Shown in pieces: positions 1-6,004 of a DNA stretch of 6,004 nucleotides. The notes beneath the pieces are model-generated. The model was not told the DNA's origin. It ran no database searches and was given only the letters and a program-made list of their open reading frames with translations. Within the stretch, counting starts at the first letter, position 1. The number at the start of each line of letters is the position of its first letter. A program made the position numbers and the translations under genes. This DNA comes from Acidobacteriota bacterium (GTDB lineage Bacteria; Acidobacteriota; Vicinamibacteria; Vicinamibacterales; UBA8438), in the NCBI GenBank assembly GCA_011523485.1, contig WTGR01000236.1, forward strand, positions 1 to 6,004, read 5' to 3'.

Positions 1-51
1 CGGGCCACGGGATTTTAAGTCCCGAGTGTCTACCAGTTCCACCACCTCGGC
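1..51 (-). tRNA. tRNA-Leu (UAA anticodon), 3' part outside window
   Basis: Read on the minus strand, the sequence begins GCCGAGGTGGTGG at position 51, then shows a leucine-type D arm (GGTAGACAC) and an anticodon arm with stem CGGGA/TCCCG around the seven-base loop CTTAAAA. This puts TAA at the anticodon, so it reads UUA leucine codons. The first bases of the long variable arm follow before the window ends; the T arm and acceptor 3' strand are not visible. The 5' end is placed by analogy with bacterial tRNA-Leu. It lies downstream of the tolC-like gene on the same strand, about 100 nt past its stop codon. Confidence 0.93.
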
Positions 52-95: not shown

Positions 96-122
96 TACGC
101 GCCGGGGCCCGCCACCGTTCGG
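96..122 (-). promoter_or_regulatory. Possible promoter for tRNA-Leu resembling the repeated ECF-like element
   Basis: The minus strand has the same CCGGCGCGTA ten-mer (96-105) that ends each of the elements upstream of the tolC-like and sigma genes. At the position where those carry CGTAAT, this site has CCGAAC (117-122), which includes a GAAC core like many ECF -35 boxes. The intervening 11 bases do not match apart from a short C run. The predicted transcription start would be about 35-40 nt before the tRNA 5' end. CCGGCGCG-type words are common in GC-rich DNA, so this is a weak call. No clear sigma-70 promoter was seen here; TACAGT at 78-83 on the minus strand is a possible -10 without a convincing -35. 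Confidence 0.25.
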
Positions 123-152: not shown

Positions 153-1817
153 CTATGGTCCGCCGACGACCACGGTCACGCCGGTACCGGCGCGCGACGC
201 GCGTTGCGCGCGGTCGAACTCGATCAGTGCGCGCTGGTAGTCGAGTATCGCGCGCAGCTCCAGCTCCCGGGCGGCCGCCAGCTCGCGCTGCATCTGGACG
301 ACCAGATAGTTGGTCGACAGCCCGACCTCGAACTTGATCTCCTCCGCCCGAAGCTGCTCTTCCGCGAGCTCCCGGGCGACGACCGCAGCCTGAATGCTCT
401 CCTGGATCGCTTCTATCTGGAGCGCGGCATCGGTCACCTCACCGACGATCTGGATCTCGATCCATTCGAGCTGGACCTCGTTCTGCCGAAGCTCCAGGCG
501 CACCCGCTCGTAGGCGGCCTCGTCCGCGCTCCGACCCAGCGGGTAGCTCATCTGCACCTGGACGCTCCAGATCGGGTAGTTCGCCCCGACGATGTCGCCG
601 ACCGCGTCCCGGTAGCCACCCGGAATCACCGCTCCGCCGCCCCCCAGGATCTCCTCGAACGTGCTCCCGGAAGGCAGAAGTCGGGGACCGCCCTGGCCGG
701 TCAACTGATAGCTTCCGACCAGATCGAGAGCGGGCAGCCTGCTGTTCCGCAGGTTCTCGGCGGTGGCGTTGTTGCTGTCGATCCGGAGCCGCGCCCGGGC
801 GATGTCGGTGCGCCGGTCGAGCGCCGTTCGGATCGCTCCCTCGAGGTCGATCGGCATCGCATCCGTCCGCGGCTCGTCCGTCGGGTTGATCTCCGCGTTC
901 CACAGCTCGTCCGTCCTGCCGTCGACGATGAGCAGCTTGAGAGCCAGCTCGTTGGTTCGCAGCACGCGAACCGCATCGGCCAGCGACTGCCGCCGCAGCG
1001 CGGCCTCCGCCCGCGCCTGCACGACCTCGATCTCTCCCACCATGCCGATCTCGACACGCGCGCGATTGTCGCGCACGAGTTGCTCGGCCAGCGCCAGCGA
1101 CTGTCGCTGCACCGCGACGGCCGCGCGCGCATGGACCAGCTCCCAGTACGCCAGCCGGACGTCGGCGAGCGTGTTTACGACGGTCTCCTCGAGGTCGACG
1201 TCGGAGATGTTGCGGTCGATCCGGGAAACGACGAGTTGCGTCCGCTCATTGTCGGTTCGGAAGCCCCGCAGCAACGGTTGCGTGTACGTCAGGCTCGCGG
1301 TCGCGGCGAGGCTCGGGTTGAAGTTCGTGAAGGTGTTGGTCGACTCCAGGCGGCTGCTGTTCCAGGTCACGTCGTACCGACCGCCGCCCCACCGCACCCG
1401 CTGGCTGACGCCGATGTCGTAGCTGCCCCGATCGGTGACGATGGATGCGCCGCCGAGCCCGCCGCCGTCCAGCAGCGAGCGGCTGGGCTGGGTGGCCTGG
1501 TTGAGGCCGAAGCCGGAGGCAGCCAGAGGCAGAAACGCCGCGTTGGCGGTGGCGACCTGCGCGTCCCGCACGAGTGGATTGATGCGCTGGACCGCGATCT
1601 GGCGGTTGCGTTCGAAGGCTCGCTCGACCGCGCCGGCGAGCGTCAGATCGAACCGCCGTATCGTTCGAGGGTCGTCTCCGATCCGACGCGCAGCTTCGGC
1701 GACTGCACCGGAGAGCGTCGTTTCGAACGGCTGGGCCTGCGCAGCACGCGCCGTCGGAAGCGTCGATCCGCCGACGACCAACCCGAGCACGAAGATGGTG
1801 CGAACTGAACTCGGCAA
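153..1817 (-). CDS. TolC-family outer-membrane efflux protein
   Basis: A 554-residue protein of the TolC/OEP family, whose trimers form an outer-membrane beta-barrel with a long periplasmic alpha-helical tunnel that receives substrates from an inner-membrane pump. Residues 1 to about 28 form a signal peptide: a hydrophobic core, then two possible AxA cleavage sites (ARA at 23-25, AQA at 26-28). The mature part shows two long helical regions. Near the C terminus is the family-typical stretch FEVGLSTNYLVVQMQREL, followed by an LDYQRALIEFDRA helix. Length is normal to slightly long. The start is TTG at 1815-1817, chosen because a strong GGGAGGGA ribosome site precedes it and the signal peptide begins there; the ATG at 1828-1830 is out of frame. 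No adaptor (membrane-fusion) or pump gene is in the window, so the substrate is unknown. The family call is firm; a more specific name is not supported. Confidence 0.95.
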   Translation of the reverse strand: MPSSVRTIFVLGLVVGGSTLPTARAAQAQPFETTLSGAVAEAARRIGDDPRTIRRFDLTLAGAVERAFERNRQIAVQRINPLVRDAQVATANAAFLPLAASGFGLNQATQPSRSLLDGGGLGGASIVTDRGSYDIGVSQRVRWGGGRYDVTWNSSRLESTNTFTNFNPSLAATASLTYTQPLLRGFRTDNERTQLVVSRIDRNISDVDLEETVVNTLADVRLAYWELVHARAAVAVQRQSLALAEQLVRDNRARVEIGMVGEIEVVQARAEAALRRQSLADAVRVLRTNELALKLLIVDGRTDELWNAEINPTDEPRTDAMPIDLEGAIRTALDRRTDIARARLRIDSNNATAENLRNSRLPALDLVGSYQLTGQGGPRLLPSGSTFEEILGGGGAVIPGGYRDAVGDIVGANYPIWSVQVQMSYPLGRSADEAAYERVRLELRQNEVQLEWIEIQIVGEVTDAALQIEAIQESIQAAVVARELAEEQLRAEEIKFEVGLSTNYLVVQMQRELAAARELELRAILDYQRALIEFDRAQRASRAGTGVTVVVGGP

Positions 1818-1856: not shown

Positions 1857-1890
1857 GACAATACGCGCCGGGCACGCTTGTCATTACGGC
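1857..1890 (-). promoter_or_regulatory. Candidate ECF-type promoter element, tolC-proximal copy
   Basis: This 34-bp sequence is repeated without a mismatch at 1929-1962. On the minus strand it carries GTAAT, a 17-nt spacer ending in CCGGCG, then CGTATTGTC. That layout (about 17 nt between an AA-containing upstream box and a CGTA/CGTC downstream box) is typical of ECF sigma promoters. The CGTA box is at 1862-1865, so a transcript would begin near 1855 and leave a leader of about 40 nt before the TTG start. The TACGCGCCGG-N11-ATTACG core (plus strand) also occurs upstream of the ECF sigma gene in this window. The repeat is certain; the promoter role is inferred. Confidence 0.6.
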
Positions 1891-1928
1891 TCGAGCACGA
1901 CTGCGGGGACCGCCTCGGCGCGGCACGA

Positions 1929-1962
1929 GACAATACGCGCCGGGCACGCTTGTCATTACGGC
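1929..1962 (-). promoter_or_regulatory. Candidate ECF-type promoter element, tolC-distal copy
   Basis: An exact copy of the 34-bp element at 1857-1890, 72 bp further upstream of the tolC-like gene and in the same orientation. The 38 bp between the copies are not repeated, and identity stops sharply at both ends. It could be a second start site, a sigma or regulator holding site, or the result of a recent local duplication. Confidence 0.6.
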
Positions 1963-2053
1963 GAGGCGGCGCTGGCTCGAACCGCCGAGAACGGGATCGA
2001 ACGCACCGGCCGACGCGCGAGCCCCTGAAGCCCTCGTCGCACCGGGCTGGGGG

Positions 2054-3685
2054 TCAGACCCGCGCCGTGGCGGCTCCGCTGCCGCGATACGTGGCCAGCG
2101 CCCAGGCGAACAGCCCCCCGACACCGATCAACGTCAGCGCCAGGTTCGCAATCCAGCCGACGAGGGGCAGGTTGACGGCGACGAAGACGGCGAGCAGGCC
2201 GACCAGCAGGGCCGGCGCCGGCCCGCCGACGCCGCGCGGGCCGAGCAGCGTGCGGCCGAGGAAGAGCGCGATCGGGATCTTGGCCAGGTAGATCGCGAGC
2301 GCCCAGAGGCCGAGCAGAACGATCGCCAGCGGCAATCCAACCAGCGTCATCGCTGCAACCAGCGCGGCGACCGGGGCGGCGATGACGCACAGGAACCCGA
2401 CGCCGAGTGTCCGCAGCGCCACCGACGGCGTCTCGAGCCGGACGGTCGCGGCGCCGGGCGCGAGCCACAACAGCAGCCCCCCGGCAATCAGGGCGGCGAC
2501 CAGCCACAGAGACTGCCGCAAGTAGAACGACGCTGTGAGGTAACGGCTCGGCGAAGCGCCGTCCCCCGCAAGTCGAACCACCGGCTCGCTCGCGAGCGTC
2601 GCCGCCGGGTCGATGCGCAGGTCGCCGGGGTGACGGACCTCCGCGATCAATGCCCCGCCGATGTGACCGCGCGACCCGACGGTGATGCGTTGGGCCGCGG
2701 CGTCGACGTTCCGCTGGACGGGTCCCGCGATATCGATGCTGCCGCCGGCGGCCCGTACGCCGTGGGCGATCTCGCCGTGCACCGACAGCACGTTGCTGTA
2801 GCTGGCGACGCCGCGGCCGACGCGGCTTCCCTGCGCGATGCGGGTTTCCTGCGAGAATGTGAACAGGCTCCCGTCCACCCGGCCCTGCACGGTGACGAAC
2901 TGGGCGCCCGTGAATACGGAGCCCCCGACCCCGCCCTCCAGATCCAGGGACTGCGACCACGAGATCACGCTACCCTGCACCGTACCGCGGATCGTTACCG
3001 TCGTTGCGTAGACGATGAGGTCGCCGGTCACGACGCCATCTACGAACACTCGCGATCCGTAGGCAAGGAGCGCATCGTCGATCTTCTCGTCGGCGAGGAT
3101 CTCCACGTCGTCGTCAGACGTTCTGACCACGAAGGCCTCGGCGGGAACTGCGACCGCTGCGAAAACCATCGCCGACAGAGCCGGCATCGTCGCGCGCCGG
3201 GCCCTGTGAGGCACGAACAGCACGACGAGCAGCAGCATGAGAATCGCGGCCGCAGCCTGGCCAACCACGGTCACCATCGACGTCAGCAAGGTACCGACCT
3301 GCACAACGACGATGATGCCGGCAAACAGCCAGGTCAGAAGACCGGACGCATGAAAGGGGCTGACCCATTCCAGGAAGGGCGGAACCTTCCACGCCGTCGC
3401 CACCGCCGCACCCGCGAGGACAGACACCGCGGCGACGACCAGCACCGGATTCCACCACCCGTTGCCGACAGCCGAGCGGCCGCCGTTCGAGACGACCGGA
3501 TCGGCCGTGGCGACGTCGAGCGCGCCTGCATGCAGCGCCTCCACGAGCACCCTGCGCTCGGCGCGCAACTCCGCCAGCGCGGCGCGGCACGATGCGCAAT
3601 TTGCGACTTGCTCCCGGACGGCCGCGGCCACGGCCGGCTCGTCGTCCGCCAGCATCATCAGGGTCGGTTCGTCGGGACACGTCAT
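2054..3685 (-). CDS. Membrane anti-sigma factor fused to a bactofilin-like beta-helix domain
   Basis: A 543-residue protein, probably the anti-sigma partner of the ECF sigma factor encoded just upstream. The N-terminal 45 or so residues resemble a zinc-binding anti-sigma domain: Cys3, then Cys30-x2-Cys33 in VANCASCRAAL. The histidine expected four residues before the first Cys of the pair is Gln26. Hydrophobic segments follow at about 79-98, 115-137, 140-158 and 168-185; the last looks like a signal peptide ending in VPAEAF. Residues about 190-372 form short glycine-rich beta repeats (GVVTGDLIVYA, GTVQGSVISWS, GRVDGSLFTFS), as in bactofilin-like polymer-forming proteins. Several more membrane helices fill 392-532. 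The reading frame stays open upstream to 4531, but the start used here (ATG 3683-3685) overlaps the sigma stop as ATGA, with AGGAAG 5 nt before it. Membrane topology, and therefore the side on which the beta-helix lies, is uncertain. Confidence 0.85.
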   Translation of the reverse strand: MTCPDEPTLMMLADDEPAVAAAVREQVANCASCRAALAELRAERRVLVEALHAGALDVATADPVVSNGGRSAVGNGWWNPVLVVAAVSVLAGAAVATAWKVPPFLEWVSPFHASGLLTWLFAGIIVVVQVGTLLTSMVTVVGQAAAAILMLLLVVLFVPHRARRATMPALSAMVFAAVAVPAEAFVVRTSDDDVEILADEKIDDALLAYGSRVFVDGVVTGDLIVYATTVTIRGTVQGSVISWSQSLDLEGGVGGSVFTGAQFVTVQGRVDGSLFTFSQETRIAQGSRVGRGVASYSNVLSVHGEIAHGVRAAGGSIDIAGPVQRNVDAAAQRITVGSRGHIGGALIAEVRHPGDLRIDPAATLASEPVVRLAGDGASPSRYLTASFYLRQSLWLVAALIAGGLLLWLAPGAATVRLETPSVALRTLGVGFLCVIAAPVAALVAAMTLVGLPLAIVLLGLWALAIYLAKIPIALFLGRTLLGPRGVGGPAPALLVGLLAVFVAVNLPLVGWIANLALTLIGVGGLFAWALATYRGSGAATARV

Positions 3686-3696
3686 TGGCTCTTCCT
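3682..3696 (-). promoter_or_regulatory. ATGA start/stop overlap with ribosome site coupling sigma and anti-sigma
   Basis: The sigma TGA (3682-3684) and the anti-sigma ATG (3683-3685) share bases as ATGA. AGGAAG at 3691-3696, inside the last sigma codons, lies 5 nt from the ATG. Translational coupling of this sort is common for ECF sigma/anti-sigma pairs and would keep the two products in balance. Confidence 0.8.
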
Positions 3697-4290
3697 GTTC
3701 GGCGCGGTCAGCATCCGCCGCAACTGCTTTCGGCCGCGAAACACCAGCACGGCGACATGACCGGGCTCGATACCGAGGATCGCGCCGATCTCCGCGTAGG
3801 CGAGCTCGTGGAAATAGGCCAGCACCAGCGGCACGCGGTACTTGACCGGCAGCGCGGCGACCGCCTCGCGGACCTGCCGGCCGCGTTCCCGCGCCAGCAG
3901 GGCGGTCAACGGGCCCGGCTCCCGCGCCGGCGCCGCCACCCGCTCGACGTCCACCGTCTCGAACAGCCGCGTCTCCCGGCCGCGCCGCCGCAGCCGATCG
4001 AGGCAGTGATGGCTCGCGACCGCGAGGATCCAGTGCGAGAACGGCCGCTCCGGGTCGTACTGCTCGAAGCGTTGCCGGCCGCGCAGGAACACCTCCTGCG
4101 CCGCGTCCTCCGCCTCGTCGGGGGAGCCGAGCAGGTAGCGGCAGGTCTGCAGCACGCGCCGGGACTGGGCTCGATAGAGGGTGTCGAAGTCGGCGTCGGC
4201 GTCGGCCCCCGCCGCCGTCTCTACCCGCCGAACGCCGGTCATCGCCAGCGGGCGAAGCATGCCGCCGGCCAGCGCGGTCACCGCGTTCAT
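3682..4290 (-). CDS. ECF-type RNA polymerase sigma factor
   Basis: A 202-residue sigma factor of the extracytoplasmic-function class, which directs RNA polymerase to a small set of promoters once released from its anti-sigma factor. Sigma region 2 spans about residues 35-103: FDTLYRAQSRRVLQTCRYLL, the conserved DEAEDAAQEVF (58-68), and FSHWILAVASHHCLDRLRRR. A linker leads to region 4 at about 138-194, with VAALPVKYRVPLVLAYF and the helix-turn-helix AYAEIGAILGIEPGHVAVLVFRGRKQLRR. There is no extra C-terminal domain. The annotated start is ATG at 4290, where a GGAAGGG lies rather far upstream; Met11 (4260) or Met17 (4242) are possible, since the first 30 residues are not conserved sigma sequence. 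It overlaps the anti-sigma gene by ATGA. Two copies of a possible ECF promoter lie upstream, suggesting autoregulation. Confidence 0.93.
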   Translation of the reverse strand: MNAVTALAGGMLRPLAMTGVRRVETAAGADADADFDTLYRAQSRRVLQTCRYLLGSPDEAEDAAQEVFLRGRQRFEQYDPERPFSHWILAVASHHCLDRLRRRGRETRLFETVDVERVAAPAREPGPLTALLARERGRQVREAVAALPVKYRVPLVLAYFHELAYAEIGAILGIEPGHVAVLVFRGRKQLRRMLTAPNRKSQ

Positions 4291-4378
4291 CCGCGCGCCC
4301 GGCCCTTCCGCATCCCGCTCCCCGGGCGCGACGGCGACACGCCCGGCACTGCCCCGGTCCCGAGCACCCGCACCATGC

Positions 4379-4413
4379 CCATACTACGCGCCGGAAGACA
4401 ACGGGATTACGAC
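4379..4413 (-). promoter_or_regulatory. Candidate ECF-type promoter element, sigma-proximal copy
   Basis: The minus strand carries GTAATCCC, then TTCCGGCG, then CGTAGTATGG. The GTAAT and CGTA boxes are 17 nt apart, as in the elements upstream of the tolC-like gene, with which it shares TACGCGCCGG-N11-ATTACG exactly (plus strand, 4385-4411). A transcript would start near 4378 and leave a leader of about 88 nt before the ATG at 4290, or longer if the sigma start is internal. Location directly upstream of an ECF sigma/anti-sigma pair fits autoregulation, a common feature of this class. Promoter function is inferred. Confidence 0.6.
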
Positions 4414-4450
4414 TCCGTTTCCCCAAGGGACCGTCAACCGCGGAACGGGG

Positions 4451-4485
4451 CCATACGACGCGCCGGAAGACGCCGGGATTGCGAC
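4451..4485 (-). promoter_or_regulatory. Candidate ECF-type promoter element, sigma-distal copy
   Basis: This copy matches 4379-4413 with 4 differences in 35 positions and is offset by exactly 72 bp. It has GCAAT in place of GTAAT and CGTCGTATGG in place of CGTAGTATGG on the minus strand, while the TCTTCCGGCGCGT block is unchanged. CGTC is also an accepted ECF -10 form. It may be a weaker second promoter or a decayed duplicate. Confidence 0.5.
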
Positions 4486-4570: not shown

Positions 4571-4921
4571 TCAGTTCGGCCGGGCGCTGCCCCGCACGTT
4601 GGCGAGGACACGGGTGATGGTGGCGGTGAGGGTGTCGACGTCGCCCTCGAAGGGGCCCGCCACGACCGCCCCGCTCGGGATCTCGATGGCGATCGCGATG
4701 CCGCCGTCGACCGGCGTCACGATCCAACTGAAGCCGCGCAAGGCGACCGAGCGCTCGTCCGCGTCCGGGTTCTGCACCTGGTCGAACGCGCCGAGCGTCA
4801 GCTCGAGCACGCGACGGACGTCGTCGTCCGCCCACGCCGTGGGCTCGGGCCCCTCGAAGTCGACGTCGGTCTCGACGACGTCCTCCTTGCCCTTGAGCAG
4901 GACCTCCACCTTGAACGTCAT
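4571..4921 (-). CDS. Small soluble protein of unknown function, coupled to the YyaL-like gene
   Basis: I do not recognise this 116-residue protein. It has no signal peptide, membrane segment or cysteine. It looks like a compact alpha/beta fold: strand MTFKVEVLLKG, an acidic stretch (residues about 12-35), helix DDDVRRVLELTLGAFDQVQ, strand SVALRGFSWIVTPVDGGIAIAIEIP, and a C-terminal helix DVDTLTATITRVLANVRG. Its ATG (4919-4921) overlaps the TGA of the upstream YyaL-like gene as ATGA, with GAGGA at 4929-4933 seven nt before it, so the two are probably translated together. Codon use and GC richness look like its neighbours. The coupling suggests a shared process with the YyaL-like protein, but nothing in the sequence gives the activity. 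Confidence 0.8.
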   Translation of the reverse strand: MTFKVEVLLKGKEDVVETDVDFEGPEPTAWADDDVRRVLELTLGAFDQVQNPDADERSVALRGFSWIVTPVDGGIAIAIEIPSGAVVAGPFEGDVDTLTATITRVLANVRGSARPN

Positions 4922-6004
4922 CCCCGGATCCTCGCAAGCTGTTCGTCCAGCCGCGCCGGATCGGTGACCGGCTCCCGGCAGGTGAAGTTAGTGCAGACGT
5001 ACGCCGTGGGGCGCCCCTCGATCTCCCGCAGGGCGCCGACGAAGGGCAGCCGCTTACCAAGGCGGGCCTGCCCGTCGCCCGGCGTCACGCGCAGCCGCAC
5101 CGCGAACGGGAGGTAGCGCGCCGCCACCACCCGCTCGAGCGCGCGGGTCTCGGGCGCGTCGGGATCCCCGACGATCACGATCTGCGTGGCCGGGGCGTGA
5201 TAGCGAACCAGAGCCGCCATCATCAGCGGCACGGCCCGCGCAGCCTGCCCGAGACGCGTCCCGAACCGGCCGAGCGTCTTCTCCACCCGGGCCGCCGCGT
5301 CCGGGTCCTCGCGCAGGTGCGACAGCGTAAGCAGATTCTCGATCGCCACCGAGCTGGCGGCGGGCTCGGCGCCGTCGTACTCCTCCTTGACCCGCAGGAG
5401 CACGGAGGGGTCATCCCCGGTGGTCGCGAACCAGCCGCCCCCCTCGTCGTCCCAGAACAGCGCGTCCTGCCGGGCCTGCAGCTCGACAGCCCAGTCGAGC
5501 CACGCTGGATCGCCGGCGGTCTGGAACAGCTCCAGCAACCCCCAGACCAGATACGCGTAGTCCTCGGCGTAACCGTCGATGGACACCGCGCCGTCGCGGG
5601 CGCGCCGCCGCAGGATGCGCCGATCGGGGTCCCACAGCCGTTCCCGTGCGAACGTCGCCGCCCGGGTCGCGGCTTCGAGGCTCCGCTCGGCCGCCGCGCC
5701 GTCCAGCACGTGCGCGGCCCGCGCCAGGGCCGCGATCATCAGGCCGTTCCAGGCCGCGAGCACCTTGTCGTCGAGATGCGGACGGGGCCGCTTCTCGCGC
5801 GCGTCGAACAGCGTCCTCCGCGCCGCGCCCAGCGTCGCCGTGACGTCGTCCACGGTGCGGCCGGTCAGCTTCGCGATCTCGCCGACGTCCTGCTGGAGGA
5901 AGGGGATGTTCCGGCCCTTGAACTCCCCCATCGGATCCTGCGGGGCGTTGCCCCCGGCCTGGATCCCGAGCCGGCGCTTCGCCACCTCCGCGTCGGCGCC
6001 CAGC
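4918..6004 (-). CDS. YyaL/SSP411-family protein, C-terminal part (5' end outside window)
   Basis: The visible 361 residues are the C-terminal half of a YyaL (DUF255, spermatogenesis-associated protein 20) family protein. Full-length members have an N-terminal thioredoxin-like domain and a C-terminal alpha/alpha-toroid like that of six-hairpin sugar-processing enzymes. Visible hallmarks are GEFKGRNIPFL, RPRPHLDDKVLAAWNGLMIA, SIDGYAEDYAYLVWGLLELFQ, DDEGGGWFATTGDD and the ending YVCTNFTCREPV with its paired cysteines. The frame is open to the window edge; the GTG at 5985 is an internal Val codon (preceding residues LGADAE), not a start. The N-terminal domain lies beyond 6004 and was not seen. 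The biochemical role of the family is poorly established. It is followed by the 116-residue gene with an ATGA overlap. Confidence 0.92.
   Translation of the reverse strand, partial: LGADAEVAKRRLGIQAGGNAPQDPMGEFKGRNIPFLQQDVGEIAKLTGRTVDDVTATLGAARRTLFDAREKRPRPHLDDKVLAAWNGLMIAALARAAHVLDGAAAERSLEAATRAATFARERLWDPDRRILRRRARDGAVSIDGYAEDYAYLVWGLLELFQTAGDPAWLDWAVELQARQDALFWDDEGGGWFATTGDDPSVLLRVKEEYDGAEPAASSVAIENLLTLSHLREDPDAAARVEKTLGRFGTRLGQAARAVPLMMAALVRYHAPATQIVIVGDPDAPETRALERVVAARYLPFAVRLRVTPGDGQARLGKRLPFVGALREIEGRPTAYVCTNFTCREPVTDPARLDEQLARIRG

Follow-up and report, generated by a model that had tools for sequence, protein, structure and literature searches.

The window analysed here, a stretch of 6,004 nt from contig WTGR01000236.1, contains two doubled promoter elements, one upstream of an operon for an extracytoplasmic function (ECF) sigma factor and one upstream of a tolC-like gene. 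The main genes are all on the minus strand. The sigma factor (3682..4290, minus strand) matches Pfam Sigma70_r2 and r4_2 and scores above the cut-off for sigma70-ECF TIGR02937. The adjoining gene (2054..3685, minus strand) encodes an anti-sigma-like protein with a bactofilin-like C-terminal part; it has no Pfam match of its own, and some of its homologues have precomputed matches to PF13490 (source name zf-HC2) and PF04519/PF26514 (source name bactofilin). The tolC-like gene (153..1817, minus strand), which has a TTG start with GGAGGGA ahead of it, encodes an outer membrane efflux protein (Pfam OEP, 1.4e-36) with an orthologue at 92% identity in relative G001. The closest relatives identified are metagenome-assembled Acidobacteria (contigs of metagenome-assembled genomes), one of them with the title Vicinamibacterales; genomes are referred to by G numbers and their loci by L numbers.

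The element CGTAAT-N11-CCGGCGCGTA occurs exactly at 1862-1888, 1934-1960 and 4385-4411 and with two mismatches at 4457-4483, in agreement with the preliminary description of this DNA. When up to three mismatches were allowed, the window contained five matches, compared with 0.13 expected from shuffles. The fifth match (96-122, minus strand, three mismatches) lies between tolC and a tRNA-like sequence and is probably due to chance. The period of 72 bp was confirmed for both pairs: 1857-1890 is identical to 1929-1962 over 34 bp, and 4379-4413 matches 4451-4485 over 35 bp at 89% identity. The duplicated units, 34 bp and 35 bp, thus exceed the motif in length. On the minus strand the element reads GTAAT, 17 nt, CGTA, and the ECF promoter geometry recognised earlier was upheld. 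The window promoters are, by prediction, ordinary ECF promoters.

The pattern GTAAT-N16/17-CGTA was found upstream of the sigma gene at 9 of 17 loci in its strict form and at 11 of 17 in a relaxed form, compared with 2.5-4% of random pieces of the same loci (about 2.5% for the strict form). No match to even the relaxed form was found upstream of sigma at six loci (G002, G004, G005, L006, L007 and L013). At the promoter position of G002, GTAGT and AGTA were read by eye, and in G004 and G005 the motif follows the anti-sigma gene, ahead of a gene read by eye as an ABC-type ATPase. In the distant relatives L130-L134, the motif precedes sigma in five of five, with a different sequence between the boxes. 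In G001, the sigma operon and tolC are each preceded by one promoter copy. A genome scan with the strict motif gave six matches in four of the five sigma-bearing genomes and none for the reversed pattern; truncated tolC copies follow two of the sites, the third in G001 and the one in G003. Autoregulation and control of tolC are well supported because of the position of the motif and its conservation in relatives, and both tolC and the operon of the sigma factor itself are very likely transcribed from the predicted promoter, as had been proposed from the window alone. A wider regulon was also sought with a slightly wider motif in 162 genomes of the order; 32 matches were obtained against 33 for the reversed pattern, indicating that the motif alone reveals none.

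Insertions at the two promoters

A single promoter copy precedes the sigma gene in G155, G001 and G002, and its flanks are continuous with those of the window. Compared with the empty site of G155, the sigma promoter of the window has a target duplication of 35 bp and an insert of 37 bp; compared with the empty site of G001, the tolC promoter has a target duplication of 34 bp and an insert of 38 bp. The net gain is 72 bp at both. At the sequence level, each promoter doubling in the window is shown to be an unrelated insert of 37-38 bp flanked by a target duplication of 34-35 bp, relative to single-copy relatives.

At tolC, the predicted gene-proximal promoter (copy 2 of the duplicated segment, 1857..1890, minus strand; single orthologous copy in G001 at L001:12367) and the distal promoter (copy 1, 1929..1962, minus strand) are exact 34-bp repeats, and the 38-bp insert between them (1891..1928) is missing from the G001 site. 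At the sigma operon, the predicted gene-proximal promoter (4379..4413, minus strand; GTAAT-N17-CGTA), which has orthologous single copies in G155 and G001, is separated by a 37-bp insert (4414..4450), missing from the G155 site, from a decayed distal promoter (4451..4485, minus strand; GCAAT and CGTC). The origin of neither insert was traced. The segments between the copies had been described as unrelated apart from a common GGGACCG word. They are weakly alike at most (p 0.056 and 0.036, uncorrected, in a set of 51 comparisons), and neither is a clean copy of the flanking sequence, so that the common word carries little weight. Because similarity of these segments to the flanks did not go beyond weak p values without correction, tandem duplication of a 72-bp unit was rejected.

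The sigma promoter of G003 is doubled as well, with a period of 73 bp and an insert different from that of the window. A second G003 insertion, of 71 bp, lies at the sigma/anti-sigma junction and has an empty site in the window, G155, G002, G001, G004 and G005. Empty sites were searched for 51 pairs (44 from G003, described below, 2 from the window and 5 from G155 and G001) and were detected for six, namely both window pairs and four in G003; for the remaining 45, no match meeting the criteria was present in the sampled DNA. Among the matches listed, at most six per pair, the net insertion at the six empty sites was 70-75 bp, the target duplication was 32-40 bp, with exceptions of 30 (twice) and 45 (once), and the insert was 34-40 bp, with exceptions of 28 (once) and 41 (twice). 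The empty sites of L190 and L297 are not clear orthologues but copies of a dispersed repeat. The insertion sites of L190, L297 and L309 lie in or beside dispersed repeats of about 60-120 bp, which are common to G003, G001 and G155.

The preliminary description had also regarded the doubling at about seven helical turns as functional. This claim is not supported, given the single copies in G155, G001 and G002, the insertion with target duplication, and 43 further sites of the G003 sample at which this geometry occurs. The corresponding explanation is a tandem ECF promoter with a fixed spacing of about 72 bp, kept because doubling strengthens or tunes the response, with two polymerases on one helix face. 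We consider it improbable. The single-copy relatives and the widespread geometry argue against it, the copies are explicable without selection on spacing, and the distal copy of the window decays at both boxes: relative to G155 and G001, the -35 change (GTAAT to GCAAT) and the -10 change (CGTA to CGTC) in the sigma pair both lie in the distal copy, and the proximal copy carries two substitutions, in the non-contact N11. In the G003 sigma pair it is again the distal copy that deviates (GTAGT). The distribution of these changes suggests that the proximal copy is under selection and that the distal copy is drifting, although the sole copy in G002 has GTAGT. Since unrelated G003 sites widely share the geometry, functional tandem spacing was not favoured as the cause.

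On the side of a maintained tandem promoter, three duplications (window tolC, window sigma and G003 sigma, with periods of 72, 72 and 73 bp) have different inserts and all include the whole promoter core, in nearly the same register. If placement within the pre-insertion intergenic regions were random, the chance of including the core would be about 5-7% for each by our own arithmetic, made post hoc. Also speaking for it, the doubled pattern in which the boxes of the first copy are 16 nt apart gave one match in G003, located at the sigma operon, and none in the other five genomes. Some functional role of the doubled state is possible, given that G003 too is doubled at the sigma promoter and that the core is included in all three duplications. 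Loss of function cannot explain the inclusion of the core: wherever it falls, an insertion of this kind preserves one copy or more of every site that the duplication exceeds in length. The low chance per event therefore makes it possible that insertions are targeted to promoters or that doubled promoters are retained. No clear promoter preference was seen in G003, where 24 of the 32 intergenic sites are tandem, 5 divergent and 3 convergent (a further 8 sites are coding and 4 unclassified), compared with 56%, 23% and 21% of random intergenic positions; divergent and convergent sites are both below expectation.

Dispersed pairs in G003 and other genomes

Isolated near-identical direct repeats around an unrelated insert were scanned for in G003 and other genomes. 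The G003 sequence was selected by contig number, together with stretches around sigma, tolC-fragment and cas genes, and is a non-random sample. It contained 218 repeat pairs with periods of 25-300 bp, from which 114 with more than three pairs within 800 bp (canonical arrays and tandem-repeat genes) were excluded; from the 104 left, the 44 with a period of 68-79 bp and a matched segment of at most 48 bp were used. Earlier passes had slightly different filters and less sequence. The 44 isolated pairs have periods of 69-75 bp and amount to 41.9 per Mb in 1.05 Mb, compared with 2.5 per Mb per period bin of equal width at other periods (25-300 bp). The 68-79 range was fixed after the peak had been seen, and the peak itself is visible in the unrestricted histogram, in which 41 pairs fall at 70-74 bp and no other 5-bp bin holds more than 6. 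Scaled to 7.6 Mb, an extrapolation from a non-random sample, the whole genome would contain about 300 pairs. In the same scan, G004 gave one pair in 0.04 Mb, with a matched segment of 20 bp and a period of 78 bp. There were none in G002 (0.05 Mb), G005 (0.06 Mb), the small loci of L130-L179 (0.17 Mb) and the 75 control loci (1.14 Mb), which are the more distant sigma relatives L006-L080, mainly from other phyla and some from Acidobacteria.

Each G003 pair is of its own sequence. Mismatches between the copies occur in 27 of the 44 pairs, which therefore look aged, unlike assembly copies. Less than half of the sequence is coding in 34 of the 44 pairs, compared with 18% of random windows according to our simple gene caller. 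Among the 10 mainly coding pairs, 8 have a period of 72 bp, which keeps the reading frame; among the other 34, the period is divisible by three in 10. This pattern fits, as expected, indiscriminate insertion that is then filtered by selection. Adjacent or triple copies are present at L246:16645-16851, L182:7121-7320 and L250:14497-14679 of G003, with two pairs back to back in L246; their appearance is that of recurrent insertion at a single site, akin to a small array at its birth.

These observations bear on whether the doublings are assembly artefacts or simple tandem duplications. Such an origin could be suspected, given that the relatives are contigs of metagenome-assembled genomes and the window is a fragment. 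The mismatches between copies, the intergenic bias together with the conservation of frame within genes, the empty sites in several genomes and the fact that the inserts do not cleanly copy the flanks all argue against it, and we regard it as very improbable.

The enzyme and a rival mechanism

G003 carries a type I-G array of clustered regularly interspaced short palindromic repeats (CRISPR; L272:55-1610) with a matched repeat of 37 bp, spacers of about 34-38 bp and a period of 71-75 bp, and beside it genes for Cas1, Cas2, Cas4, Cas3g, Csb1/Cas7g and Csb2. The mean period is 72.25 bp for the dispersed pairs (n=44) and 73.0 bp for the array (n=21). The dispersed periods did not differ from 23 array periods in a Kolmogorov-Smirnov test (p 0.38), which compares only the shape inside the preselected 68-79 range. 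The dispersed repeats are unrelated to the array repeat and to one another, and a canonical CRISPR array was rejected on these grounds. In the six genomes of the group, cas1 was found in five and not in G002. Two of the features expected of off-target integration are present: an insert of spacer length within a duplication of repeat length, and empty sites in relatives.

When Cas1-Cas2 integrates a spacer, a copy of the target repeat ends up on either side of it. The doubling is probably explained by off-target spacer integration by Cas1-Cas2, a known reaction at an unexpected scale that happened to copy promoters. The insertion process is well shown, and the enzyme is what we infer. Under this explanation, the CRISPR adaptation enzyme (Cas1-Cas2, with Cas4) would at times integrate spacers outside the array. 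It would attack both ends of a target of about 36 bp, on opposite strands, and gap repair would then duplicate the target on either side of the spacer. At least one intact copy of a shorter site would be guaranteed because the duplication exceeds the promoter core in length, and two would result if the insertion fell on the site. In the window, insertions would have landed on two ECF promoters of one regulon and given tandem promoters for two genes, after which the proximal copy would be kept by selection while the distal copy drifts.

Several results weigh against off-target spacer integration. In 0.63 Mb, G155 has 2 pairs, a density (3.2 per Mb) not clearly raised over its background (1.7), and G001 has only 3 in 0.50 Mb (6.1 against 1.0), with matched segments of 23-33 bp, yet both genomes have Cas1 and arrays of 36-37 bp. 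Some of the 10 mainly coding pairs in G003 may be protein repeats. No cas genes were seen for the window's own genome, of which the window sequence alone was examined. The duplicated targets have no common motif, are not enriched in hairpins (4.73 versus 4.69) and show no likeness to the CRISPR repeat (7.23 versus 7.08). The exact duplication length is scattered, with 12 at 34-43 bp and 5 at 23-29 bp. At the outer border, in 22 low-mismatch pairs, the base is C in 52% and G in 25%; the off-target sites used in vitro by a type II-A integrase, which belongs to another CRISPR type than I-G, are stated in excerpts of PMC6895254 to favour G and to resemble the leader-repeat junction. No full-length match of an insert was found elsewhere in the 3.8 Mb examined, three insert cores had no exact match in IMG/VR, and matches of at least 16 bp in G003 numbered 69 for inserts and 49 for reversed inserts.

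The absence of a target motif, the variable duplication length and the untraced source of the inserts speak for some other insertion or repair mechanism that adds about 36 bp and duplicates about 36 bp, the match to CRISPR being coincidental; an unrelated integrase, or templated insertion where breaks are staggered, would be examples. The small number of pairs in two related genomes, each with a Cas1 of its own, points in the same direction. The period distribution, which is similar to that of G003's own array, speaks against such a mechanism, as does the finding that no insert is copied in full length within the sampled 14% of G003. We also know of no other enzyme that yields both a duplication of 30-40 bp and an insert of 30-40 bp, and this was counted against it. 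On balance, another mechanism seems unlikely.

Off-target spacer integration, if accepted, allows a broader and rather doubtful proposal, that CRISPR adaptation is a genome-wide generator of regulatory variation. Hundreds of intergenic spacer insertions per genome, drawn to or retained at active promoters (those of the present ECF sigma factor among them), might then produce tandem promoters in a single step, with the original promoter left unbroken.

Surrounding genes and comparison with known systems

Upstream of the sigma operon lies a gene for a conserved 116-aa protein (4571..4921, minus strand), followed by one for a conserved protein that runs off the window edge (4918..6003, minus strand); neither has a Pfam or NCBIfam match. 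Orthologues of both are present in L001, L002, L003 and L093, at 91-98% identity for the former and, in the same position, at 90-94% for the latter. In G155 (L093), the sigma gene is 94% identical to that of the window and the two upstream genes 94-98%. The anti-sigma/bactofilin gene (L093:10385-12043 versus window 2054-3685) is only 65% identical, and one database protein is 95% identical to the window protein. Allelic replacement of this gene between G155 and the window is possible from these identities.

After tolC, window positions 1-50 were read by eye as part of a tRNA-Leu (TAA anticodon); ARAGORN reported no gene. In G003 (L003:9515-9605) and G155 (L093:12255-12345), tolC is gone from the locus and the tRNA-Leu-like sequence follows the anti-sigma gene. 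Truncated tolC copies are present elsewhere in G001 and G003 (L094:7386-8200, L095:7990-8242 and contigs C64, C13 and C15 of G001). Two of the truncated copies retain the ECF promoter, and one of these two has the 3' end of the anti-sigma gene; G001 has three fragments of the tolC 3' end at 88-91% identity.

If off-target spacer integration is the correct explanation, a natural genome holds array-geometry insertions by the dozen in each megabase, and the integrase would act as a mutator of the host genome. The footprint would be distinctive, and the age of its copies could be ranked; duplicated promoters could also arise by a one-step route. The period of isolated pairs should then follow the array type of each genome.

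ECF sigma-anti-sigma operons commonly have autoregulated promoters. The window likewise has an ECF sigma gene, an adjoining anti-sigma-like gene and an upstream GTAAT-N16/17-CGTA; unlike in these operons, the promoter in the window and in G003 is doubled by insertion. Spacer integration is usually described as limited to CRISPR arrays, with rare leaks, and the natural off-target cases in Nivala et al. 2018 are said to be few and from two genera. The type I-G array of G003 has a geometry like that of the dispersed pairs, whose repeats are unrelated and do not resemble the CRISPR repeat.

The ectopic repeats of CreTA also lie outside arrays, often as one or two, and are described in PMC9458426 as making CRISPR-resembling RNAs; the repeats of the dispersed pairs have no such resemblance. 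CreTA-like repeats were ruled out on sequence, there being no likeness to the CRISPR repeat. Among the matches listed from open-access titles and abstract openings, a scope outside which most subscription papers fall, no dispersed array-geometry insertions at such density were found. Off-target integration in vitro has been reported for a type II-A enzyme, as given in an excerpt of PMC6895254. In Escherichia coli, off-target integration followed Cas1-Cas2 overexpression (Nivala et al. 2018, as cited in a passage of PMC11788318) and occurred near motifs like those of integration host factor (IHF; Nivala et al. 2018, as cited in a passage of PMC9456107). The E. coli events and the present pairs have in common spacer-sized DNA outside any array. 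In contrast to E. coli, the present pairs show no target motif, include duplicated regulatory elements and represent dozens of natural cases in 1 Mb of one type I-G genome.

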